A stretch of DNA of 34,650 bases from Candidatus Peregrinibacteria bacterium (GTDB lineage Bacteria; Patescibacteriota; Gracilibacteria; UBA1369; LOWO2-01-FULL-3). Location: contig WJKE01000061.1 in assembly GCA_014729275.1 (NCBI GenBank), positions 1-34,650 of the forward strand, written 5' to 3'. The position numbers and the translations under genes are program-made. The notes beneath the pieces were generated by a model that worked only from the letters and a program-made list of their open reading frames with translations, was not told the DNA's origin and did no database searches. Position 1 is the first letter of the stretch; each line of letters starts with the position of its first letter. Shown here piece after piece: positions 739-27,498 of the stretch.

Positions 739-1683
739 ATGAAGAAAACATTTGCAGATAGACTGGTGGAAGCTGTTAAGGCTAAGGGGAATCCAATTTG
801 TGTTGGGCTTGATCCCAGGCTTAATCAGATTCCATCCTATATAAAAAGAAAAGCGCTTGAAGGGAAGGATGTGTCTCCAATGGCGGCTGCAGCTGATAGT
901 ATTTTGGAATTTAATAAAGGAATTATTGATGCGGTCGCAGATATTGTGCCTGTGGTGAAACCGCAAATAGCTTTTTATGAGATTTTTGGGTATGAAGGTG
1001 TGCGCGCTTACGAAGAAACTTTGAAATACGCAAAAGAAAAAGGACTTATAACAATTGCGGACGCAAAAAGAAATGATATTGGTTCAACTGCGACCGCCTA
1101 CGCCCAAGCTTTTTTAGGTGAAGTTGAAATGTTTGAAGATGAAAATGAAGTTATTTCTCCAATTTTTGACGCGGATAGCATTACCCTAAACGCTTATCTT
1201 GGAATTGATGGCATTAAGCCTTTTATTACAGAGGCTCAAAATTATGATAAAGGAATGTTTATTCTGGTAAAAACTTCAAATCCTTCGAGCGGTGATCTTC
1301 AGGATTTGGAAATGAAAGATGATTCAAAGATTTATGAAATAATGGGCTACTTGGTAGATAGTTGGGGCGCAAATGAAATAAGTGATAGCGGATACAGTAG
1401 TGTAGGCGCGGTTGTGGGTGCAACTTATCCGGAACAGGCTGCTACGCTTCGAAAAATTATGCCAAATTCAATCTTTTTAGTTCCCGGCTATGGAGCTCAA
1501 GGCGGGGGAGCAAAAGATGTAGCGCCTTGCTTTAATGATGATGGACTTGGTGCGGTGGTAAATAGCAGTCGTGGAATCATTTTTGCTTACGAAAAACTGG
1601 ATGGATTTGATGAAACCAGTTATGCAGAGGCTGCGGCACAAGCTGCAAAAAATATGCGTGATGATTTGGCTTCAATATTTTAG
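739..1683 (+). CDS. pyrF: Orotidine 5'-phosphate decarboxylase, long (type 2) form
   Basis: ICVGLDPRL, ITIADAKRNDIGSTA and LVPGYGAQGG motifs; 314 aa. Confidence 0.93.
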   Translation: MKKTFADRLVEAVKAKGNPICVGLDPRLNQIPSYIKRKALEGKDVSPMAAAADSILEFNKGIIDAVADIVPVVKPQIAFYEIFGYEGVRAYEETLKYAKEKGLITIADAKRNDIGSTATAYAQAFLGEVEMFEDENEVISPIFDADSITLNAYLGIDGIKPFITEAQNYDKGMFILVKTSNPSSGDLQDLEMKDDSKIYEIMGYLVDSWGANEISDSGYSSVGAVVGATYPEQAATLRKIMPNSIFLVPGYGAQGGGAKDVAPCFNDDGLGAVVNSSRGIIFAYEKLDGFDETSYAEAAAQAAKNMRDDLASIF

Positions 1684-3752
1684 GCAACCCGAGAGATTTT
1701 TTTAACGGATCTATATTTTGATCCGGGCTGAAGTAATGAAGGATTGTTAGTAACCTTAATAGTTACTATTCTTGGAGGATTATTGTTGTAGTTTGGGTAG
1801 CTGATTGTCTGCACAAGAGAATATCGACCTTTATTTTGCACACCCATTACAATTGTTGAGTGATTAAATTTTTTGTTTCCGGGCGCGTGTGTATAAATCC
1901 AATCTCCTTTCTTAAGTAAATCGGGGGAAGCATTACCTCTTGTATCATCAAAACGAGTTCCTTTTGAGTAACGGAAGATTGTGTGTTTACTGTAGTAGCC
2001 CACGGCAAATTCATATACCGCCATGGCCCAGGAATAACAGTGATATCCTTTAACTTTGTATTCCATAAAGGTAACTGCGGTTTCTATAATTTTTTGAGCC
2101 GGATCGAGTCCCTGTATTCTTTTGTGTAATGCAGCAAGCTTTTCTGGTGGAATCTTTTCACTAATTTCCCTTGCTTGTCTTATTGCTAACCGACTTCTTT
2201 TTGATGAAGGATTTTTCTTTATTTTACGGTCAATTCTGGTTTCAGTTTTTCTAAATGGATTAATTCTTAAATTTTTATAGTCCATGAGCGACCTTTTACT
2301 CATTACAGCATAATTCCTACTTTCATCATTTTTATCGCGGTAGTCTTCATATTGAAAACAAGAATTTGAGTTCATGCAGTCGGTTGAAGTCCTTTCAAAA
2401 ATTTTGGATTTTTTGATATTTGAAGTTTTGGGAGCAAAAAGTTTATCTATAAGCGCGTTAACAGAAATTGGATCTGAAGATGATTCAAGTTCGCGAAGTA
2501 TTTTTTTGAATTTTTGAGGATATAATTCTGTGAGTCTGTGAAAGGTTCGGAGATGATATAGTTTTAAGTGGTAAGTTTCGGAAATATTAAAATGATACAT
2601 TTTTCCTAGAAATTCAAAATTTTCAGTTTTCTCTATTGCGCGTAAAAAGTTTATCAAATTATTAGGTTTAAGATCTTTTTTTAAAATTTCATTCAAATTA
2701 GCTTCGCCTTTTATAAGTTTTTCTTGCATTTTTTTTGTGAATCCCAACATTTCCGGTCCTGAAAGTGAAGATCTGCTCAAATTTAAAACAACCCGTCCAC
2801 CATCAATTTCGTTTCTTGTATGCAGCTTGATTCCGTAAAAAGCGAAAATGGATTTCATTATTTCCCAGTCGCTTTTTACTTTTTCGGTTTCTTTAGATTC
2901 TGGTACTGATTCTTCCAAAGAACTTAATGACCTTATGCGACTGTTTTCTCCACCAGTTTCGTCATTATATTCTATGTTTTGATAATCCTGTGCTTGCTCT
3001 TTAATATTTTTAAAGAATTCAGTTTCTTCTGTAACTTGCTTTTCATATAGATCGCTTTGTTCGCTAATTGTTTCTTCCGGGATAATTAGGTAGTTATTGT
3101 AAATTTCCATGTAACCTTTGGCATCAAAATATCCGTAAACTCCGTTTCGTTCCTGGCGGATACCTGTTCTTTTGTTTCCCTGAGTGTCAACTATAGAGAC
3201 TTTAGTATAACTTGGGGGAATAACATGGGCTGCGCCAATTACATATTTTGTATTATCCCTTAAATTTTGAACTTTAAATCCGTTTTCTGTTTTTTTGAGG
3301 TAAACTTGAGCACGCCTTTGGTAAATATCCAGATTGTCGGGATTTTTTAGTTTGGAAAGGTAATATCCTCCCTGTAAATCAATCATAGAGGCGTGGTCGG
3401 CAACTTTAAGGTGATTACTTAATTCTTCCCCGGAAGGTAATTTTTCGAAACTCTTTAGATAATTTTTGGTGTCCGGGTTTTCAAAAAGGCTTTCTCCTAC
3501 AGCCTCCTGTGCATTTGCGGTTGAGGGGGTAAGCATTTCTTTAACACTTTCTTTTTCGCTTTTTTTTCTTTCTTTAAGTGCTTGTAGTCGAGTTTCCAGA
3601 GCTTTAACTTCTTTTTCTTTATTGGCTTCACGCGCTTGTTTAAGCGCTAGCCTAATTTCTTTTTCTTCTTCATTAAAGTTTTCGGGATTCTTAAAAATCA
3701 GGCGTGAGGCCTTAAAATTTTCTTTCAAATTTTTGAGTAATTTTAGTAACAT
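1680..3752 (-). CDS. Uncharacterised 690-aa protein with N-terminal coiled-coil and C-terminal cysteine-peptidase-like (NlpC/P60- or CHAP-like) region
   Basis: Long ORF. C-terminal YHCYSWAMAVYEFA ... LLKKGDWIYTHAPGNKKFNHSTIVMGV resembles the Cys/His arrangement of NlpC/P60/CHAP folds. Lys/Glu-rich heptad-like N-terminus. Confidence 0.7.
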   Translation of the reverse strand: MLLKLLKNLKENFKASRLIFKNPENFNEEEKEIRLALKQAREANKEKEVKALETRLQALKERKKSEKESVKEMLTPSTANAQEAVGESLFENPDTKNYLKSFEKLPSGEELSNHLKVADHASMIDLQGGYYLSKLKNPDNLDIYQRRAQVYLKKTENGFKVQNLRDNTKYVIGAAHVIPPSYTKVSIVDTQGNKRTGIRQERNGVYGYFDAKGYMEIYNNYLIIPEETISEQSDLYEKQVTEETEFFKNIKEQAQDYQNIEYNDETGGENSRIRSLSSLEESVPESKETEKVKSDWEIMKSIFAFYGIKLHTRNEIDGGRVVLNLSRSSLSGPEMLGFTKKMQEKLIKGEANLNEILKKDLKPNNLINFLRAIEKTENFEFLGKMYHFNISETYHLKLYHLRTFHRLTELYPQKFKKILRELESSSDPISVNALIDKLFAPKTSNIKKSKIFERTSTDCMNSNSCFQYEDYRDKNDESRNYAVMSKRSLMDYKNLRINPFRKTETRIDRKIKKNPSSKRSRLAIRQAREISEKIPPEKLAALHKRIQGLDPAQKIIETAVTFMEYKVKGYHCYSWAMAVYEFAVGYYSKHTIFRYSKGTRFDDTRGNASPDLLKKGDWIYTHAPGNKKFNHSTIVMGVQNKGRYSLVQTISYPNYNNNPPRIVTIKVTNNPSLLQPGSKYRSVKKISRVA

Positions 3753-3794: not shown

Positions 3795-4568
3795 TTAGCC
3801 TTTTATGCCAGAAATTGCTTTAGATAAAGCGTTATAATCTTCTATACTTAAATTCTGAGGGCGAATGTTTTGTGGAAGGTTTAAAGTTTCAAAAATTGTT
3901 TCAAGCTTTGAAAGAGGCAAGTCTAAATTTTTTGCCAGTGTTCGAATAAGTTTTTTTCTTTTTTGTGAGAAGGCTGTTTTAATTATTTTTTCAATTTTTT
4001 CGGCTTCTTCACTACTGAATCGATTAATTGTTTTTATATGGATAATTGCTGAATCTACCTTAGGTCTTGGATAAAAAGCCGTATTTTTAACCTTTTTTAT
4101 GTATGTGGCATCTCCGTATAATTTTACCTGAAGATTTAATACGCTACTTTGCTCCTTGTCGCAGATTTTTTTAGCAACTTCGTATTGAATTAAGAGCGTT
4201 AAGGAGTCGGGTTTATTGGCATTTTTTAGAAAGAAATTTATAAGTGGAGAAGTTATGTTGTAGGGGATATTCGCTACAACTTTATATTTTATTTGAGGAA
4301 TGTGATATTCAAGCGCATCGATATTTATTAATTTAAAACCAGGCTTTTTAAAAAATTTTTCTTCCAGAATAGGTATAAGGTCTCGATCTTTTTCCAGGCA
4401 GACAACTTTTTTTGCTTCTTGTAATAAATGCTCTGTTAAAGCGCCTTTGCCGGGTCCAACTTCAATTATTGTTTCTTCTGGTGAAATATCTGCAGTGCTA
4501 ATAATTGTGCGTAAAATATTTTTATCTTTTAAAAAATTTTGTCCGAATCTTTTTTTTGCTTTAAACAT
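3795..4568 (-). CDS. rsmA: 16S rRNA (adenine(1518)-N6/adenine(1519)-N6)-dimethyltransferase RsmA/KsgA
   Basis: KKRFGQNFLKD, IIEVGPGKGALTEHLL, VVANIPYNITSPLI motifs. Confidence 0.95.
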   Translation of the reverse strand: MFKAKKRFGQNFLKDKNILRTIISTADISPEETIIEVGPGKGALTEHLLQEAKKVVCLEKDRDLIPILEEKFFKKPGFKLINIDALEYHIPQIKYKVVANIPYNITSPLINFFLKNANKPDSLTLLIQYEVAKKICDKEQSSVLNLQVKLYGDATYIKKVKNTAFYPRPKVDSAIIHIKTINRFSSEEAEKIEKIIKTAFSQKRKKLIRTLAKNLDLPLSKLETIFETLNLPQNIRPQNLSIEDYNALSKAISGIKG

Positions 4569-4812
4569 CCTCGATTTTTATTAATTTTAACTTTTCAGTC
4601 CTGCCGCTTAAAATTTTTATCCGTTCTGTTCCAATTTTAAGTTCTTTTGCCAAGAATTTTATAAGTTCCTTATTTGCTTTGTTTTTTTCCGGTGGTGCAG
4701 CAATTCGAATTTTTATGGTTTCATCAGCCATAATTTCGCTTATACAGGTTTTTGGACTGCCTGGAATAACTTTAATCCTCAGATACCCGGTTTTTGGTAA
4801 TTTTAAGTGCAT
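4561..4812 (-). CDS. YggU/DUF167 family protein
   Basis: 83 aa; IKVIPGSPKT, IRIAAPPEKNKANKELIKFLAKEL, I..SG..E..K typical of the family; overlaps rsmA start and the upstream gene end. Confidence 0.85.
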   Translation of the reverse strand: MHLKLPKTGYLRIKVIPGSPKTCISEIMADETIKIRIAAPPEKNKANKELIKFLAKELKIGTERIKILSGRTEKLKLIKIEDV

Positions 4813-6520
4813 TTTTAATCAAAAATTTGATGATAATATAGCTCACAAAAATATATGCAATTATTTCCCATTCAATTTTTCTTAATTCCGTAAGATTGAA
4901 GATGTTTTGGAAGAGTTGAATGCTTGTTAGGCTGTAAGCAAGTAGGAGAGAAATTATTCCGGTGAAAATTAAATAGATGTTTTTAAGTTTATACTTAATT
5001 GTTTCAAAGGCTTTGTTAGTTTGAAAAATTATAAAGAGGACTAAAATTAAGCTGACTGAGCTTAAACTTATCATTTCTTGTGGGGGAAGAGCTTCTCCGG
5101 GTTCCCAGCCGAGGCGTAAAGAGTTCCAGGTAAGAAGGCAGAGGCCTATTAGGCCCAATGTAACCCCATGTATTAAGGTGTTTTTAATGAATGGACGTGA
5201 GAAGATTTTTTTATTAAGGTCAGCGTTTGAAATTTCTTTAGATTCGGTTTCGCGAAGTGCAATTTCGTTTAACAGATTTATTACCAGGTCTATTATTAAT
5301 ATAGAGCTTATGGTAAATGGTAGAGGGGCTTTTAAGATAAGGGCAAATGCAATAAGTATTATTTGTGCAATTTTGCATGAAAGCGAATGGAAAAATATTT
5401 TTTCAAAGTTTGATATTACGGATCTGGCTCTGAAAATTCCTTCAATTAAATTTATTAAACTTTGGGGATTCCTTTTTTTAATTGTTACTACGTTTTCTTC
5501 CATATCCCTTAAAACCTCTTCCAATAGAGCTTTATCTTTTTGTTGTAATTCGGCAAAAAGAAAATCTTTTTCAGTATTTTGAAGCATTTTTTCAATCTTT
5601 TGCTTGGATAAAGTACGCAAATATTTACCTGTTATGACTTCAAAATATTGGGGGTTTATGAGGTTAAACTCTTTGGCAATTGCAACAGCATTCCGTTCTT
5701 TAATTTTTGTGGCGACATTAATTTTTATGCCTTTATCTTTTAATTCCTGAATATGTTTTTTTGCTTTTAAGTTTAGGGGAGTGGCGGTTCCAATCAGGCC
5801 CAGAAAAATTAGATCCTGTTCAGTAAAATTTTCAGTGTATTTGTCCAGTATTTTGTAGGGCAGCCCTTTATAGGCAAATGCTGTAATTTTTTGGCCTTTT
5901 TGATTTAAAACTTTAATTCTTTTTCGAAGTTTTCTTTTAATTTTTTCAGTAAGTTCAACTTTTTCATTATTAATTATAATTCTGGTGCATTTTTCCAGTA
6001 TTTTTTTGGGATGTCCTTTTGAAAGTGCAAACACCTCTTTTGTGTCGATTTTTTTTACGACAGATGTCGAGAGCTTTTTTTCAATTGTTGTAGGGATTTT
6101 TGCAATTAGTTTGTAATCGTTTTTAAATTTTTGGATTCCGAGCCTTAGTCCGTTAAAAAAATTCTTAATTACCGACTCTGTTTTTTCGGCTTTGGAAAAA
6201 TTTGTGTAAAGAGTTATCACCGAGATCAATTTTAATATTTGGTCTTTTCTTAAATGGTCTTTATCTACTGACATTATTTCGTTGTTGTCGTAGTTAAGAA
6301 TATCAACCATTTTTTTGTTTTCTTTGAGGCTTATTTTATATTTATCAAGAAGAATACTTTTAACAATACCGTAATCTTTGGTAAGGACATTTCGAATGCT
6401 TGTTAAAATTCTTGTGGTATAAGCGAGTTTTAAATTTTGTGATGAAAAAACTTTAATTATTATTAAACTTAAAGGAAGGAAAGCGAGAGCTATAATAATT
6501 GCTAAACTTAAAAGATCCAT
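4772..6520 (-). CDS. Degenerate P-type ATPase-like membrane protein (pseudoenzyme candidate), truncated N-terminus
   Basis: By-eye colinear alignment with the 857-aa ATPase in this window: KGHPKKILEKCT~KGAYEEVLKKCT, ITAFAYKG~VLAFAYKE, FLGLIG~FVGLVG, then a C-terminal block of about 6 TM helices. DKTGTLT reads DKYKISL and TGDGVND is absent. Confidence 0.75.
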   Translation of the reverse strand: MDLLSLAIIIALAFLPLSLIIIKVFSSQNLKLAYTTRILTSIRNVLTKDYGIVKSILLDKYKISLKENKKMVDILNYDNNEIMSVDKDHLRKDQILKLISVITLYTNFSKAEKTESVIKNFFNGLRLGIQKFKNDYKLIAKIPTTIEKKLSTSVVKKIDTKEVFALSKGHPKKILEKCTRIIINNEKVELTEKIKRKLRKRIKVLNQKGQKITAFAYKGLPYKILDKYTENFTEQDLIFLGLIGTATPLNLKAKKHIQELKDKGIKINVATKIKERNAVAIAKEFNLINPQYFEVITGKYLRTLSKQKIEKMLQNTEKDFLFAELQQKDKALLEEVLRDMEENVVTIKKRNPQSLINLIEGIFRARSVISNFEKIFFHSLSCKIAQIILIAFALILKAPLPFTISSILIIDLVINLLNEIALRETESKEISNADLNKKIFSRPFIKNTLIHGVTLGLIGLCLLTWNSLRLGWEPGEALPPQEMISLSSVSLILVLFIIFQTNKAFETIKYKLKNIYLIFTGIISLLLAYSLTSIQLFQNIFNLTELRKIEWEIIAYIFVSYIIIKFLIKNALKITKNRVSED

Positions 6521-6526
6521 TGAGTT

Positions 6527-7171
6527 TTATTTTAAATTTTTTCTGCGCCAGGTTTCAATTTTTTTGTGATTTCCGGATAATAGAACTTCCGGCACTTTTT
6601 TCCCCATAAAATCAGCAGGCCGAGTGTATTGCGGATATTCTTTTTTTCTTTTTAGGTTTTTTGAGAAGGATTCTTCATTTAAAGATTCTTTTTCACCCAA
6701 AACGCCCGGTACAAGCCTTGATATTGCGTCTACCATTACCATTGCCGGTATCTCTCCTCCGGTTAGAATGTAATTTCCTATTGATATTTCATGGTCAACC
6801 AGCATATCGCGTATTCTTTGATCGATTCCTTCATATCTTCCACAGAGCAGTATTAATTCGTCGAATTTTGCGAATTTTTCAACTTTGGTTTGAGTTAAAG
6901 TTTGTCCCTGAGGAGTCATAAAAATTACCGGCCCTTTGTTTTTCTTTTTAATTTTAGTGATTGAATCGTAAAGAGGTTGTGGTGTCATAAGCATTCCGGG
7001 GCCTCCACCAAAAGGTAAATCGTCAACTTTTTTATGCCTGTTTTTTGAGTATTCGCGGATATTGTGAACTTTGATATTTATTAGATTTTCATCAAGAGCA
7101 CGTGCCATTATGCTCTCCCGAAAATAAGATTCAAATATATCCGGAAAAATTGTAAGTATATCGAAGCGCAT
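6527..7171 (-). CDS. trmD: tRNA (guanine-N1)-methyltransferase TrmD
   Basis: MRFDILTIFPDIFESY, DLPFGGGPGML, LCGRYEGIDQR, SIGNYILTGGE motifs. Confidence 0.96.
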   Translation of the reverse strand: MRFDILTIFPDIFESYFRESIMARALDENLINIKVHNIREYSKNRHKKVDDLPFGGGPGMLMTPQPLYDSITKIKKKNKGPVIFMTPQGQTLTQTKVEKFAKFDELILLCGRYEGIDQRIRDMLVDHEISIGNYILTGGEIPAMVMVDAISRLVPGVLGEKESLNEESFSKNLKRKKEYPQYTRPADFMGKKVPEVLLSGNHKKIETWRRKNLK

Positions 7172-7192: not shown

Positions 7193-9766
7193 TCAAAATT
7201 TTTGTAAAAGTTTTTTGAAAAAGGTAGTTGCTTTTGGAACAAGTAAGGCGGGACTTGCAAGTACAAATAGTAACACCCATTCTGTGAAACTTAATGGAAC
7301 TGTTTTAAATACCGATTGCATGAACGGAGAGTAGATCATGAATAACTGTAGTATGAATGAAATAAATACAGCTCCAATCAGAAATTTATTTGAGAATAGT
7401 GATTTTATTGTGACAGATTTTTCTTCTTTACATACAAAGGCAAAAAGTAATTCGAATACTACAATTTCAGTGAAAACCAATGTTCGGGCATGTGAAGCTA
7501 AATCCATGTTGCGGACGTTTGTTCCTAAAGATAAATCCAGATTTAAGCCGTAAAAATATACTGCTATGTTTGCAATTATCTGGAAGAAAACTGCAATTGA
7601 AATAAATAAAAAGAATTTTTTGAAAATTTTTTCATTTTTTGGATGGGGAGATTCTTTCATAATTCCTTTGTCTGCTTTGGATTTTCCCAGTGCAAGTGCG
7701 GGCAAGGAGTCTGTTGCAATATTAATCCATAAAATTTGAAGGGGAAGGATTGGTAAAGGGAAACCCAGAATTGTCAGAATTCCTACGGACATTATGGTGT
7801 CGTAATTGGCGGATAGCATGTACTTAGTGAATGAAAGAATGTTTTTATATACTCTACGCCCTTCTTTTATTGTGTTTACTATAGTGGTGAAATTGTCGTC
7901 TTTCAAAATTATATCGGCAACTTCTTTGGTTGCTTCTGTTCCTTTTATCCCCATGGCGATTCCAACTTCAGCATGTTTGAGCGCGGGAGCATCGTTTACG
8001 CCGTCTCCAGTAACTGCTGTAACCTCTCCGGTAGATTGAAGAAGGTCAACTATCCTATATTTATGTTGCGGCGATGTACGAGCAAATATTGCGGTCTCGT
8101 TAAGTACTTCTTTAAGTTTTTTGTCATCCATTTTATCGATTTCTTGTCCGGTTACAACTTTATCTTCCGCTACACCAATTTTTTTTCCGATAGCCAGTGC
8201 AGTTACCGGATTATCACCCGTGATTATTTTTACTTTAATTCCCGCATCGTATGCTGCTTTTATAGAGCTTTTTACAGTCCTTCTTGGAGGATCCTGCATA
8301 CCAACCAGTCCCACAAATGTAAGAGCTTTTTCTTCAAATTTTCCTTTATGTTCTTTATATGCAAATGCCAACACACGAAGTGCTTCCTTTGAATATGAAA
8401 TTGCAATGCGTTCGATTTCTTTTTTGTCTTTTGCGGTTAATTTTTTAACTTTGCCGGCTTTAAGTATATGCGTACATTTTTTCAAAACTTCCTCGTATGC
8501 TCCTTTAGTATAGATTTCTTTCTTTTTACCGGTATCAACCAAAACACTCATCATTTTTCTTTCGGATGTGAATACTTTTTCATCAAGTTCTTTATATTTT
8601 TTAGACTTGGATACTTTTCGATTTAGAATTTTTAAAGCAATTTCAGTGGGATCACCAATAATATTTTTTTCTACAAATGAGTTGTTGCAGTTTTCGCATA
8701 TTTCAAAAAGCTTGTCTTCTATTCCTTTTTTTGGTTTTATTTTTTTTCTGATGCGATATCCTTCTCCGCTTATTGTTTGTTCAGTAAATCCTGTATTAAT
8801 TTTGGTTACTGTCATTTCGTTTAGCGTCAGGGTCCCGGTTTTATCTGAACAAATAACAGTTGTGGCGCCAAGGGTCTCGATTGCATTCATTTTTCTTACA
8901 ATTGCTTTTTTTCGCGCAATTATTTGAACACCCATTGCCAGAGTGAGGGTAACTATTATGGGCATTCCTTCCGGAATCGCGGAGACTCCCAGGGCTACAG
9001 CTGTAATGAACATGTTGAAAATGGGAACCCCACGCAATAAGCCCAATATGAAAATAATTAATACCAATCCCAATACTATGAGTGCAATTTTTTTCCCCAA
9101 TTGGTTCATCTGCCTTGTTAGGGGAGAGGCGGTTTCTGTTTGTTTGGAAACCAGATTTACAATTTTTCCAAATTCAGTTTCCATACCAATTGATTGAACT
9201 TTACACTTTGCTCTTCCGGTAGATACAATTGTTCCTTTAAATAGCTGTCCGCTTTTGTCTTTGGCTCCCGCTTTTTTATCAACGGGTACGCTTTCTCCGG
9301 TTAAAACAGCTTCTTCTACTTTTAGTGAAAAGGCTTCTAAGATTTCCAAATCTGCCGGTATTTTGTCTCCTTCATTTATTAAAACTATGTCGTCGGGTAC
9401 CAATTCACGTACTGGTAGTTCTTTTTTTTCTCCATTTCTGATTACAACTGTTTTCGGAACTATCATTTTTTTTAATGCTTTGACTGCATTTTCCGCCTTG
9501 TATTCCTGAGAAAATCCAATTGCAGCATTAATTAAAATGATTACAAATATTGCCAGGCCATCGGTAATTTCGCCAAGTAATAAGGAAATACTTCCGGCAA
9601 CAATTAGTACAATCACCAAAAAAGACGTGAATTGTGAGAATAGAATTTTTAGTATTCGGAATTCTTTAGCTGTCTTAAACTCGTTATATCCAAATTTTGC
9701 ACGCTGGGTTGAAACTTGTTTAGTGGAAAGTCCAAAGTTTTTGTACTCTTTAGAAGTTTTTGGCAT
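7193..9766 (-). CDS. Cation-translocating P-type ATPase, SERCA/PMCA-like (probable Ca2+)
   Basis: TGES, PEGMP in M4, DKTGTLTLNE, KGAYE, TGDGVNDAPALK, NIATDSLPALALG in M6. Confidence 0.94.
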   Translation of the reverse strand: MPKTSKEYKNFGLSTKQVSTQRAKFGYNEFKTAKEFRILKILFSQFTSFLVIVLIVAGSISLLLGEITDGLAIFVIILINAAIGFSQEYKAENAVKALKKMIVPKTVVIRNGEKKELPVRELVPDDIVLINEGDKIPADLEILEAFSLKVEEAVLTGESVPVDKKAGAKDKSGQLFKGTIVSTGRAKCKVQSIGMETEFGKIVNLVSKQTETASPLTRQMNQLGKKIALIVLGLVLIIFILGLLRGVPIFNMFITAVALGVSAIPEGMPIIVTLTLAMGVQIIARKKAIVRKMNAIETLGATTVICSDKTGTLTLNEMTVTKINTGFTEQTISGEGYRIRKKIKPKKGIEDKLFEICENCNNSFVEKNIIGDPTEIALKILNRKVSKSKKYKELDEKVFTSERKMMSVLVDTGKKKEIYTKGAYEEVLKKCTHILKAGKVKKLTAKDKKEIERIAISYSKEALRVLAFAYKEHKGKFEEKALTFVGLVGMQDPPRRTVKSSIKAAYDAGIKVKIITGDNPVTALAIGKKIGVAEDKVVTGQEIDKMDDKKLKEVLNETAIFARTSPQHKYRIVDLLQSTGEVTAVTGDGVNDAPALKHAEVGIAMGIKGTEATKEVADIILKDDNFTTIVNTIKEGRRVYKNILSFTKYMLSANYDTIMSVGILTILGFPLPILPLQILWINIATDSLPALALGKSKADKGIMKESPHPKNEKIFKKFFLFISIAVFFQIIANIAVYFYGLNLDLSLGTNVRNMDLASHARTLVFTEIVVFELLFAFVCKEEKSVTIKSLFSNKFLIGAVFISFILQLFMIYSPFMQSVFKTVPLSFTEWVLLFVLASPALLVPKATTFFKKLLQKF

Positions 9767-25656: not shown

Positions 25657-25706
25657 TAGTAAATTTGAAAAAAATGCCTTTTAAATGGAAAAATTATGTG
25701 CAAATA

Positions 25707-25735
25707 TTGGATTCCTAAAAATAACTATTTATATT
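25707..25735 (+). promoter_or_regulatory. Candidate promoter of the sigma factor gene
   Basis: TTGGAT - 17 nt - TATATT; lies downstream of the first ORF-track ATG, supporting a later start. Confidence 0.5.
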
Positions 25736-25807
25736 TTGGAGATAAATACTGAAAGGAATGATGGCGAAACCGGCTATACCTTGCCAAATGACAGGTGTGG
25801 TCTTGTT

Positions 25808-26536
25808 ATGAGTGCCGAATCTATCGTTGAATATCATGCGAAGAGGGTTTGGCAGAAAAATAGAGGCTTTGATTTAGATGATATTATGCAAGAGGCCAGG
25901 ATGGGAGCTATTAGGGCAGCAATAAAATTTGATCCGGATAAGTCTTCTTCTTTTAACACTTACGTTTCTTATTGGGTAATAAATATGATTTCCAGATGGA
26001 TCAGATCCAACCTTTCCGTATTAACAGTGCCTGATCATTTAATGGCAAGAGCAGGTATATATAGGCGTGAAGTTTTTAAGGAAGAATCTCCATCTGTTGA
26101 TGAATTAATTGAAATGTTTGGAGTTTCAAAAGTGACTGCTGAAAAAGTTAAGCAGATAATTGACAATGTTGGTTTTGAAACTTCGATAGATGCTCCGATT
26201 AAATTAGATGAAAATATGTCTTTGAAGGATGTTATTGGAGAGGATTGTGTAGTTTTGGATAAAACTGAAGAAGTAAGGGATAGGGGAAGATTGTTAAATT
26301 TAATAAGGGAAAAGTATTTTACTAATTATAAAAAGAAATTTTTGGAGCGAGATTGGGATATTTTTATAAATCGTTTTGGTTTTAATGAAGATCAAGAAGT
26401 GTTGACTCTTGAGCTTTTGTCTGAAAAACATGGCTTGTCACGTCAAGGGGTTCAATATATTGAAAAGAAAATATTAGCTAAAATATCATCAGATTCTGAG
26501 ATAGTTGAAATGTTGAAAGATTTAGTTGGCCATTAG
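25808..26536 (+). CDS. RNA polymerase sigma-70 family (alternative) factor; start re-assigned from 25685 to 25808
   Basis: Region 2: FDLDDIMQEARMGAIRAAIKFDPDKSSSFNTYVSYWVINMISRWIRSN; region 4: LSEKHGLSRQGVQYIEKKILAKI. Confidence 0.87.
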   Translation: MSAESIVEYHAKRVWQKNRGFDLDDIMQEARMGAIRAAIKFDPDKSSSFNTYVSYWVINMISRWIRSNLSVLTVPDHLMARAGIYRREVFKEESPSVDELIEMFGVSKVTAEKVKQIIDNVGFETSIDAPIKLDENMSLKDVIGEDCVVLDKTEEVRDRGRLLNLIREKYFTNYKKKFLERDWDIFINRFGFNEDQEVLTLELLSEKHGLSRQGVQYIEKKILAKISSDSEIVEMLKDLVGH

Positions 26537-27498
26537 ATTAGGTGGAAGGTTTTTCCAATGAAGGCTGCGTAAAGTAGAAGTAGGGTCATGCCTTCCCATT
26601 TTGAAATTTCTTTATCCATAGTCACAAACACATAGAGGATTGTGATGAATACCAATGCCGGAATGGTGAAGGTGATGAATTCTTCAGGGATTGTGAGCGT
26701 TCCGAAGAAAGCGGGAATTCCCATTACTCCCAGCGCATTAAAGATATTGGATCCCGTAATGTTTCCTATTGCGATTCCTGCGTTACCTTTTCTGGCAGCC
26801 ACTACAGAGGTTACCAATTCGGGCAGGGATGTTCCGATTGCGACAGCAGTAACTGCGATTATTTCTTTACCAATGTTTAAAATTTCCGATAAGCGAATTA
26901 CTGAAGTGATTGTGAAATCGGCAGAAAGTATGATTGCGATTCCGGATATAATTAAAATTGCGGGGTATTTTATTCCTATGCGGTTTCGTTTTTTTTCTTC
27001 CTTCCTTTCTTTTTTTATGTCCTTTAAATCCTTGGCTTCAACTTTACGTTCGGATTTGATGTTGTAGAGAACGTATGTGAGTAAGGCCAGGAGGCAAAGA
27101 ATTCCGTCAATGTATGTGAAGATACCGTCTAAAGTGGTCAGGAACAAAAGTATTACTGAACCCATTAAAATTGGAAGGTCGATTTTAATTATGTCCTTGT
27201 CTACGTTTAGAGTTTTTCCTACAATGGCGGCAATCGCTAATACTAATAGGATGTTGGCCAGATTTGATCCGGTTACGTTTGCGATAACGATTTCTGAGTT
27301 CCCGGCAAGTACAGCGCTTACAGATGTTGCGATTTCGGGGAGTGAGGTTCCTACAGCTACTATTGTAACCCCGATAATGAAGGAGGGAATCTTAAATATT
27401 AAACCGATTTTTTCCGCTGTATCTGTAAAGTAGTCTGCGGCTTTTATTAATATGGCTAATGAAGCTACAAAGGCTACTGTCCAAAGTAAAATATCCAT
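26533..27498 (-). CDS. Ca2+/cation:Na+ antiporter, CaCA family (YrbG-like)
   Basis: Two inverted alpha-repeats: GTSLPEIATSVSAVLAGNSEIVIANVTGSNLANI and GTSLPELVTSVVAARKGNAGIAIGNITGSNIFNA. Confidence 0.93.
   Translation of the reverse strand: MDILLWTVAFVASLAILIKAADYFTDTAEKIGLIFKIPSFIIGVTIVAVGTSLPEIATSVSAVLAGNSEIVIANVTGSNLANILLVLAIAAIVGKTLNVDKDIIKIDLPILMGSVILLFLTTLDGIFTYIDGILCLLALLTYVLYNIKSERKVEAKDLKDIKKERKEEKKRNRIGIKYPAILIISGIAIILSADFTITSVIRLSEILNIGKEIIAVTAVAIGTSLPELVTSVVAARKGNAGIAIGNITGSNIFNALGVMGIPAFFGTLTIPEEFITFTIPALVFITILYVFVTMDKEISKWEGMTLLLLYAAFIGKTFHLI

Follow-up and report, generated by a model that had tools for sequence, protein, structure and literature searches.

Work on P-type ATPases treats them as pumps, and clear pseudoenzymes have seldom been recorded in this family. 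The locus described here raises the question of what becomes of such a protein when the parts needed for pumping are gone. It lies in a window (the whole 34,650-nt stretch of DNA analysed) that is part of contig C32 in the 1.44 Mb genome of a Candidatus Peregrinibacteria bacterium; relatives at the family level were mostly deposited under the same name. Peregrinibacteria are very small bacteria, so far uncultured. Genomes of this kind are streamlined, at about 1 Mb, and unneeded genes are expected to disappear from them. An initial annotation described an intact open reading frame at 4772-6520 as encoding a P-type ATPase pseudoenzyme of 582 aa. We confirm this frame, on the minus strand, and consider it very probable that its product is a maintained, non-pumping pseudoenzyme.

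Genomic context

The pseudoenzyme gene and its neighbours are arranged as follows.

4772..6520, minus strand: pseudo-P-type ATPase, 582 aa (M4, P- and N-domain remnants, M5-M10), as seen by ORF, Pfam, BLASTP, AlphaFold and Foldseek analysis
6527..7171, minus strand: trmD, the upstream neighbour, kept beside the pseudoenzyme wherever the contig reaches
4561..4812, minus strand: yggU (DUF167), overlapping the pseudoenzyme gene by 41 nt
3795..4568, minus strand: rsmA, the next conserved gene downstream of yggU, by which it is overlapped
7193..9766, minus strand: intact P2-type Ca2+-ATPase (PMR1-like), a paralogue but not the parent, sometimes absent where the pseudoenzyme is present

The gap between trmD and the pseudoenzyme gene measures 6 nt, which leaves no room for an A domain upstream. 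Between rsmA and pyrF, a 690-aa protein without any Pfam match is encoded (1680-3752, minus strand). It is fast-evolving, because the proteins in its slot in relatives vary widely in length (443-929 aa) and resemble it weakly or not at all. The window that holds the Ca2+ pump also encodes a sodium/calcium exchanger family protein (26533-27498, minus strand; PF01699, 4.4e-64). A sigma-70-type factor (25685-26536, plus strand; region 2 at 6.6e-12, region 4 weak) adjoins the ribosomal protein cluster.

Homology and predicted fold

Pfam matches above the cut-off were obtained for Cation_ATPase_C (PF00689, 1.2e-12) and for the N domain Cation_ATPase (PF13246, 2.7e-8). The proposed colinearity with the ATPase of 7193-9766 is borne out by BLASTP (E 1e-18, 24% identity over 454 columns), and a profile of the pseudoenzyme family finds P2-type pumps of the PDB by sequence alone (LMCA1, 1.9e-36). 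The initial annotation had also reported that the first transmembrane pair and the actuator domain are missing. The actuator part stands, as no Pfam match to E1-E2_ATPase (PF00122) is found in the 582-aa protein and the A domain is absent from all 22 homologues, but the loss is larger than described: M1-M3 are gone altogether.

The proposed check by structure prediction agrees with a P2-type ATPase fold. An AlphaFold2 model built from the 22 pseudoenzyme sequences only, without templates, reached a mean pLDDT of 86.6 and a pTM of 0.69. Seven helices are modelled, namely M4 (broken at Pro16), M5, M6, M7, M8, M9 and M10; M4 and M5 are separated by the N domain and a shortened P domain. Foldseek matched the model to P2-type ATPases in the PDB (E about 1e-26). 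Normalised to query length, the TM-score was about 0.65-0.70 against most structures in E2-type states and about 0.45 against those in E1 states. Since AlphaFold was trained on such pumps, the fold match is not independent of the sequence homology; taken together, homology and predicted fold are strong evidence for derivation from a P-type ATPase. The remaining parts are listed below. The first-pass MAFFT alignment was unreliable in M4 around the lost PEGL, and M4 was therefore read by eye.

6419..6520, minus strand: M4 remnant, residues 1-34; the helix-breaking Pro16 of PEGL is kept in 22/22, and the next Glu is replaced by L/I/V/M in 22/22
6377..6409, minus strand: former phosphorylation loop DKTGTLT, residues 38-48, here ILTSIRNVLTK
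5816..6340, minus strand: N domain, residues 61-235; E115, K168-G169 and G209-Q210-K211 invariant
5471..5815, minus strand: second half of the P domain, truncated, residues 236-350; TGD is lost, and GDGxND is deleted together with the last strands
4778..5467, minus strand: M5-M10, residues 352-581; cation site altered (N768 to K383, N796 to D411, D800 to N415)

Loss of catalytic motifs

In a family alignment with intact pumps, the old DKTGTLT corresponds to residues 41-47 (SIRNVLT), within a loop that reads ILTSIRNVLTK in the window protein, ICTNITGVLTK in the family consensus and ICSDKTGTLTL in the pump. DKYKISL (residues 59-65), which had been taken for the dead phosphorylation motif, lies 18 residues downstream of the true loop and was discarded. 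The phosphorylated Asp is lost in 19 of the 22 homologues, the window protein included, most commonly by a change to Asn; three retain it, and the rest of the motif is found in none. TGES, TGD and GDGxND are absent from all 22. The hinge motif TGDGVND had been described as replaced. It is indeed gone, but by more than substitution: a deletion of about 36 residues begins at the hinge and takes in the final strands of the P domain. In all 22 homologues GDGxND and about 30 residues after it are deleted. Homologues with intact motifs do exist, but they are full-length ATPases of other lineages, and the members of the pseudoenzyme clade are equally dead.

P-type ATPases work by an established mechanism, the Post-Albers cycle. 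Given the loss of the motifs, of M1-M3 and of the A domain, we infer that this cycle is impossible by known chemistry. Judged by homology and predicted fold the window protein is a P-type ATPase, and judged by its motifs it is not a functional pump.

A split pump, with the A domain and M1-M3 encoded by a separate gene, was also considered. It is ruled out by the absence of a stand-alone actuator gene from the 14 genomes tested, in which PF00122 matches lie in full-length frames, except for one frame of 166 aa (G028).

Nucleotide pocket and cation site

The N domain was compared with the ATP-binding residues of SERCA, in which Phe487 stacks on adenine. The equivalents of Glu442, Lys515 and Gly516 are invariant (22/22) and that of Lys492 is Lys or Arg, while the Phe487 equivalent is lost and the Arg560 equivalent is Lys in every homologue. 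With the adenine-stacking Phe lost and Arg560 changed to Lys, ATP binding may be gone. The pseudoenzymes have also fixed residues of their own (GQK, S151 and D319), and 23 residues are invariant across the 22 homologues.

In the membrane, the equivalent of N768 is Lys in 20/22 (K383 in the window protein), that of N796 is Asp or Glu in 21/22 (D411) and that of D800 is Asn in 22/22 (N415). The E771 equivalent is Glu in 18/22 and Gln in the window protein, and the M4 Glu (E309) is hydrophobic in all 22 beside the retained Pro. On these alignments, a P2-type cation-binding site of the SERCA type is not preserved.

Distribution and origin

The suggested survey for the same degenerate family and its co-occurrence with trmD and rsmA found the pseudoenzyme in 27 of the 30 genomes of the window's Peregrinibacteria family, in the conserved order trmD-X-yggU-rsmA on every contig that extends far enough (in the two g16 genomes the short yggU went undetected). 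In two further genomes, G001 and G019, a full-length ATPase occupies the trmD-yggU slot in place of the pseudoenzyme; the remaining one (G011, 76% complete) yielded neither. Six genomes from other families of the order have an intact-type ATPase in this slot (L061-L067; the copy of G071 is cut by contig ends). Outside the family, searches of the order and of 287 genomes of the phylum yielded no pseudoenzyme of this kind. One contig titled Nitrospirota bacterium (L072, JAUVQE010000015.1) has the gene order of family member G026 and is probably mislabelled.

A tree built on the shared columns groups the pseudoenzymes in a single clade, which joins beside the slot ATPases of G001 and G019; the Ca2+ pump of the window falls in a clade of its own. 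The two slot pumps show an average identity of 0.28 and 0.27 to the pseudoenzymes, compared with 0.21 for the Ca2+ pumps. Y228, G471-W472, Q500 and a two-residue insertion before KG are common to pseudoenzymes and slot pumps and are not found in the Ca2+ pump. The tree, the shared markers and the same slot indicate that the pseudoenzyme descends from the original slot pump and not from the neighbouring one. Long branches are a caveat for the gene tree, but not for the shared genomic position. The initial annotation was thus right that an intact paralogue lies nearby (the Ca2+ pump of 7193-9766), but slot, tree and markers show that it is not the parent gene. Tandem duplication of the adjacent Ca2+ pump was rejected as the source, being contradicted by synteny, tree, marker residues and identities.

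A species tree with G001 and G019 outside the rest of the family, which fits a single truncation event, was not rejected and had the higher likelihood (p-AU 0.573); a free search placed the two genomes elsewhere with weak support.

Proposed function

Conservation differs by region between the two proteins of the same genomes. In the Ca2+ pump it is 79% for M4, 80% for M5-M6 and 57% for the N domain, whereas the pseudoenzyme shows 43% for N, 44% for P, 41% for M5-M6, 31% for M4 and 30% for M7-M10. This reversed profile indicates a shift of selection away from the transport core and towards the cytoplasmic remnant. The best explanation overall, which we hold at about even confidence, is a lineage-specific pseudoenzyme that arose from the slot pump and now acts as a membrane-anchored sensor or scaffold. 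The mechanism taken by itself, a sensor or scaffold and not a transporter, is given slightly less than even weight.

In the ancestor of most of the family, the slot pump would have lost M1-M3, the A domain and the end of the P domain, and with them the ability to phosphorylate and to cycle. The predicted remainder is a membrane anchor of seven helices (M4-M10), on which a truncated P domain bears the N domain. The N/P remnant would bind a ligand or a partner, and the membrane part would be frozen, with Lys383 where a cation would otherwise be coordinated. A more specific version, which we regard as tentative and rather improbable in all its details, is a pump turned non-transporting sensor in which the N domain senses some ligand that is not ATP, the signal passes through a membrane part that the cation-site lysine locks in one state, and the protein works independently of any P2-type pump; the ligand part is suggested by the lost adenine-stacking Phe beside a retained Lys/Glu pocket. 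The earlier idea of a repurposed nucleotide-binding membrane protein survives in part: repurposing with use of the N domain is favoured, but with the Phe lost in 22/22 nucleotide binding may have gone.

A passive channel, an exchanger or a lipid-handling protein, whose membrane half moves a substrate without an ATP cycle, is the first alternative. Polar residues conserved in the membrane core (S18, H378, K383, E386, D411 and N415) would suit it. We nevertheless consider it unlikely, since M4-M6, which forms the transport core and is the best-conserved part of real pumps, has lost that rank here, the cation-site Lys argues against cation passage, and the access path lacks M1-M3, which normally line it.

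Relation to the adjacent Ca2+ pump

A further possibility is that the protein, as a subunit, helps to regulate or assemble a P-type ATPase, most obviously the adjacent Ca2+ pump. Heteromeric P-type pumps exist, and in most genomes of the family the two genes flank trmD in one gene run. Against this stand seven genomes in which the pseudoenzyme is present and a Ca2+ pump of the neighbouring type was not found, namely G027, four g3 genomes (G002, G020, G025 and G028) and two g16 genomes (G015 and G024). Some of these are incomplete, but G027 is 99% complete, and the same purifying selection acts on the pseudoenzyme in all three sets. It is thus not an obligate subunit of that pump. The role as regulatory or scaffolding partner put forward initially is unsupported as an obligate one: an obligate partnership is unlikely, a looser one possible, and the subunit reading as a whole appears improbable. 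Three of the four g3 genomes and G015 carry other, distant P2-type pumps, and G028 a fragment of one. In G027 (contig C25, L040) no P2-type ATPase was found, and the only A-domain protein is of the CPC-motif heavy-metal type; other genomes of its genus carry the Ca2+ pump beside trmD.

Maintenance under selection

The pseudoenzyme could finally be a functionless, decaying remnant, kept by chance or for translational coupling to yggU and rsmA. The yggU overlap would be in line with this, as would its faster divergence (about 35% identity against 60-70% for the neighbours) and frame breaks around M5 in three genomes (G018, L045 6600-8347; G012, L046 7616-9233; G008, L058 3-1050). All three are incomplete MAGs, in which decay, a two-gene split or sequence error may underlie the breaks. 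About 580 codons are open in most genera of the family, however, and the invariant residues noted above also speak against decay. Pairwise dN/dS of the pseudoenzyme, a check proposed at the outset, is 0.09-0.11 in g3, 0.04-0.05 in g14, 0.06 in g16 and 0.13 in g12; several dS values exceed 1 and are rough estimates, and no value was obtained for three saturated g14 pairs that include G029. The unsaturated pair G002/G025 (dS 0.37) yields 0.093. These values lie in the range that the same pairs give for trmD, rsmA and pyrF, also in genomes without the Ca2+ pump. Loss of the motifs throughout the family, the predicted fold and dN/dS of 0.04-0.13 together uphold the claim that the pseudoenzyme is maintained rather than decaying, and a decaying remnant is very unlikely. 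Such strict conservation despite the loss of pumping implies that a new job was probably acquired. A sequencing or assembly artefact was excluded for the family as a whole by 22 independent long frames and the low dN/dS.

Equally hard to sustain is a protein that would still act as an ATPase or phosphotransferase by other chemistry, through the N domain (KG and the equivalents of E442 and K492 are retained) and the newly fixed GQK, S151 and D319, as the catalytic Asp, TGD and the Mg2+-binding GDGxND are all absent and no alternative active site was recognised.

Comparison with known systems

The intact ancestral form in the same slot of relatives, together with 27 genomes carrying the derived form, provides a clean natural experiment that shows what persists of a pump once pumping is gone. 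The closest counterparts are the Peregrinibacteria slot ATPases (L047, L048, L063-L067), which share the trmD-X-yggU-rsmA position, the marker residues and the highest sequence similarity, but are full-length (864-925 aa) with TGES, DKTGT and GDGxND intact. Among pumps of known structure, the pseudoenzyme matches LMCA1 of Listeria (PDB 6zhf/6zhh), a P2-type, PMR1/SERCA-like pump, over the N domain, part of the P domain and M4-M10. It differs from LMCA1-like pumps in lacking the A domain, M1-M3, the phosphorylated Asp and GDGxND, and in a cation site rebuilt around Lys.

Searches of the open-licence literature gave no bacterial pseudo-P-type ATPase. The nearest published case of an inactive P-type-like protein is human TMEM94/ERMA, reported to be without detectable ATPase activity and without TGES and proposed to be non-cycling (PMC12134183); its class is disputed, as a second report argues that it is a Mg2+ ATPase (PMC13322241). 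TMEM94 is eukaryotic and keeps an A-like domain and ten helices, and its loss is independent. KdpB of KdpFABC, in which a conserved Lys and an acidic residue (D583/K586) act at the cation site (PMC8385062), is a possible parallel to the built-in Lys of the pseudoenzyme; it is, however, a full, active ATPase that works with KdpA. The P4-ATPase domain fused to an apicomplexan guanylyl cyclase is likewise a P-type ATPase unit in a non-classical role, but it keeps DKTGT and appears to be catalytically required (PMC7858053), and it differs from the pseudoenzyme in its retained catalytic Asp.
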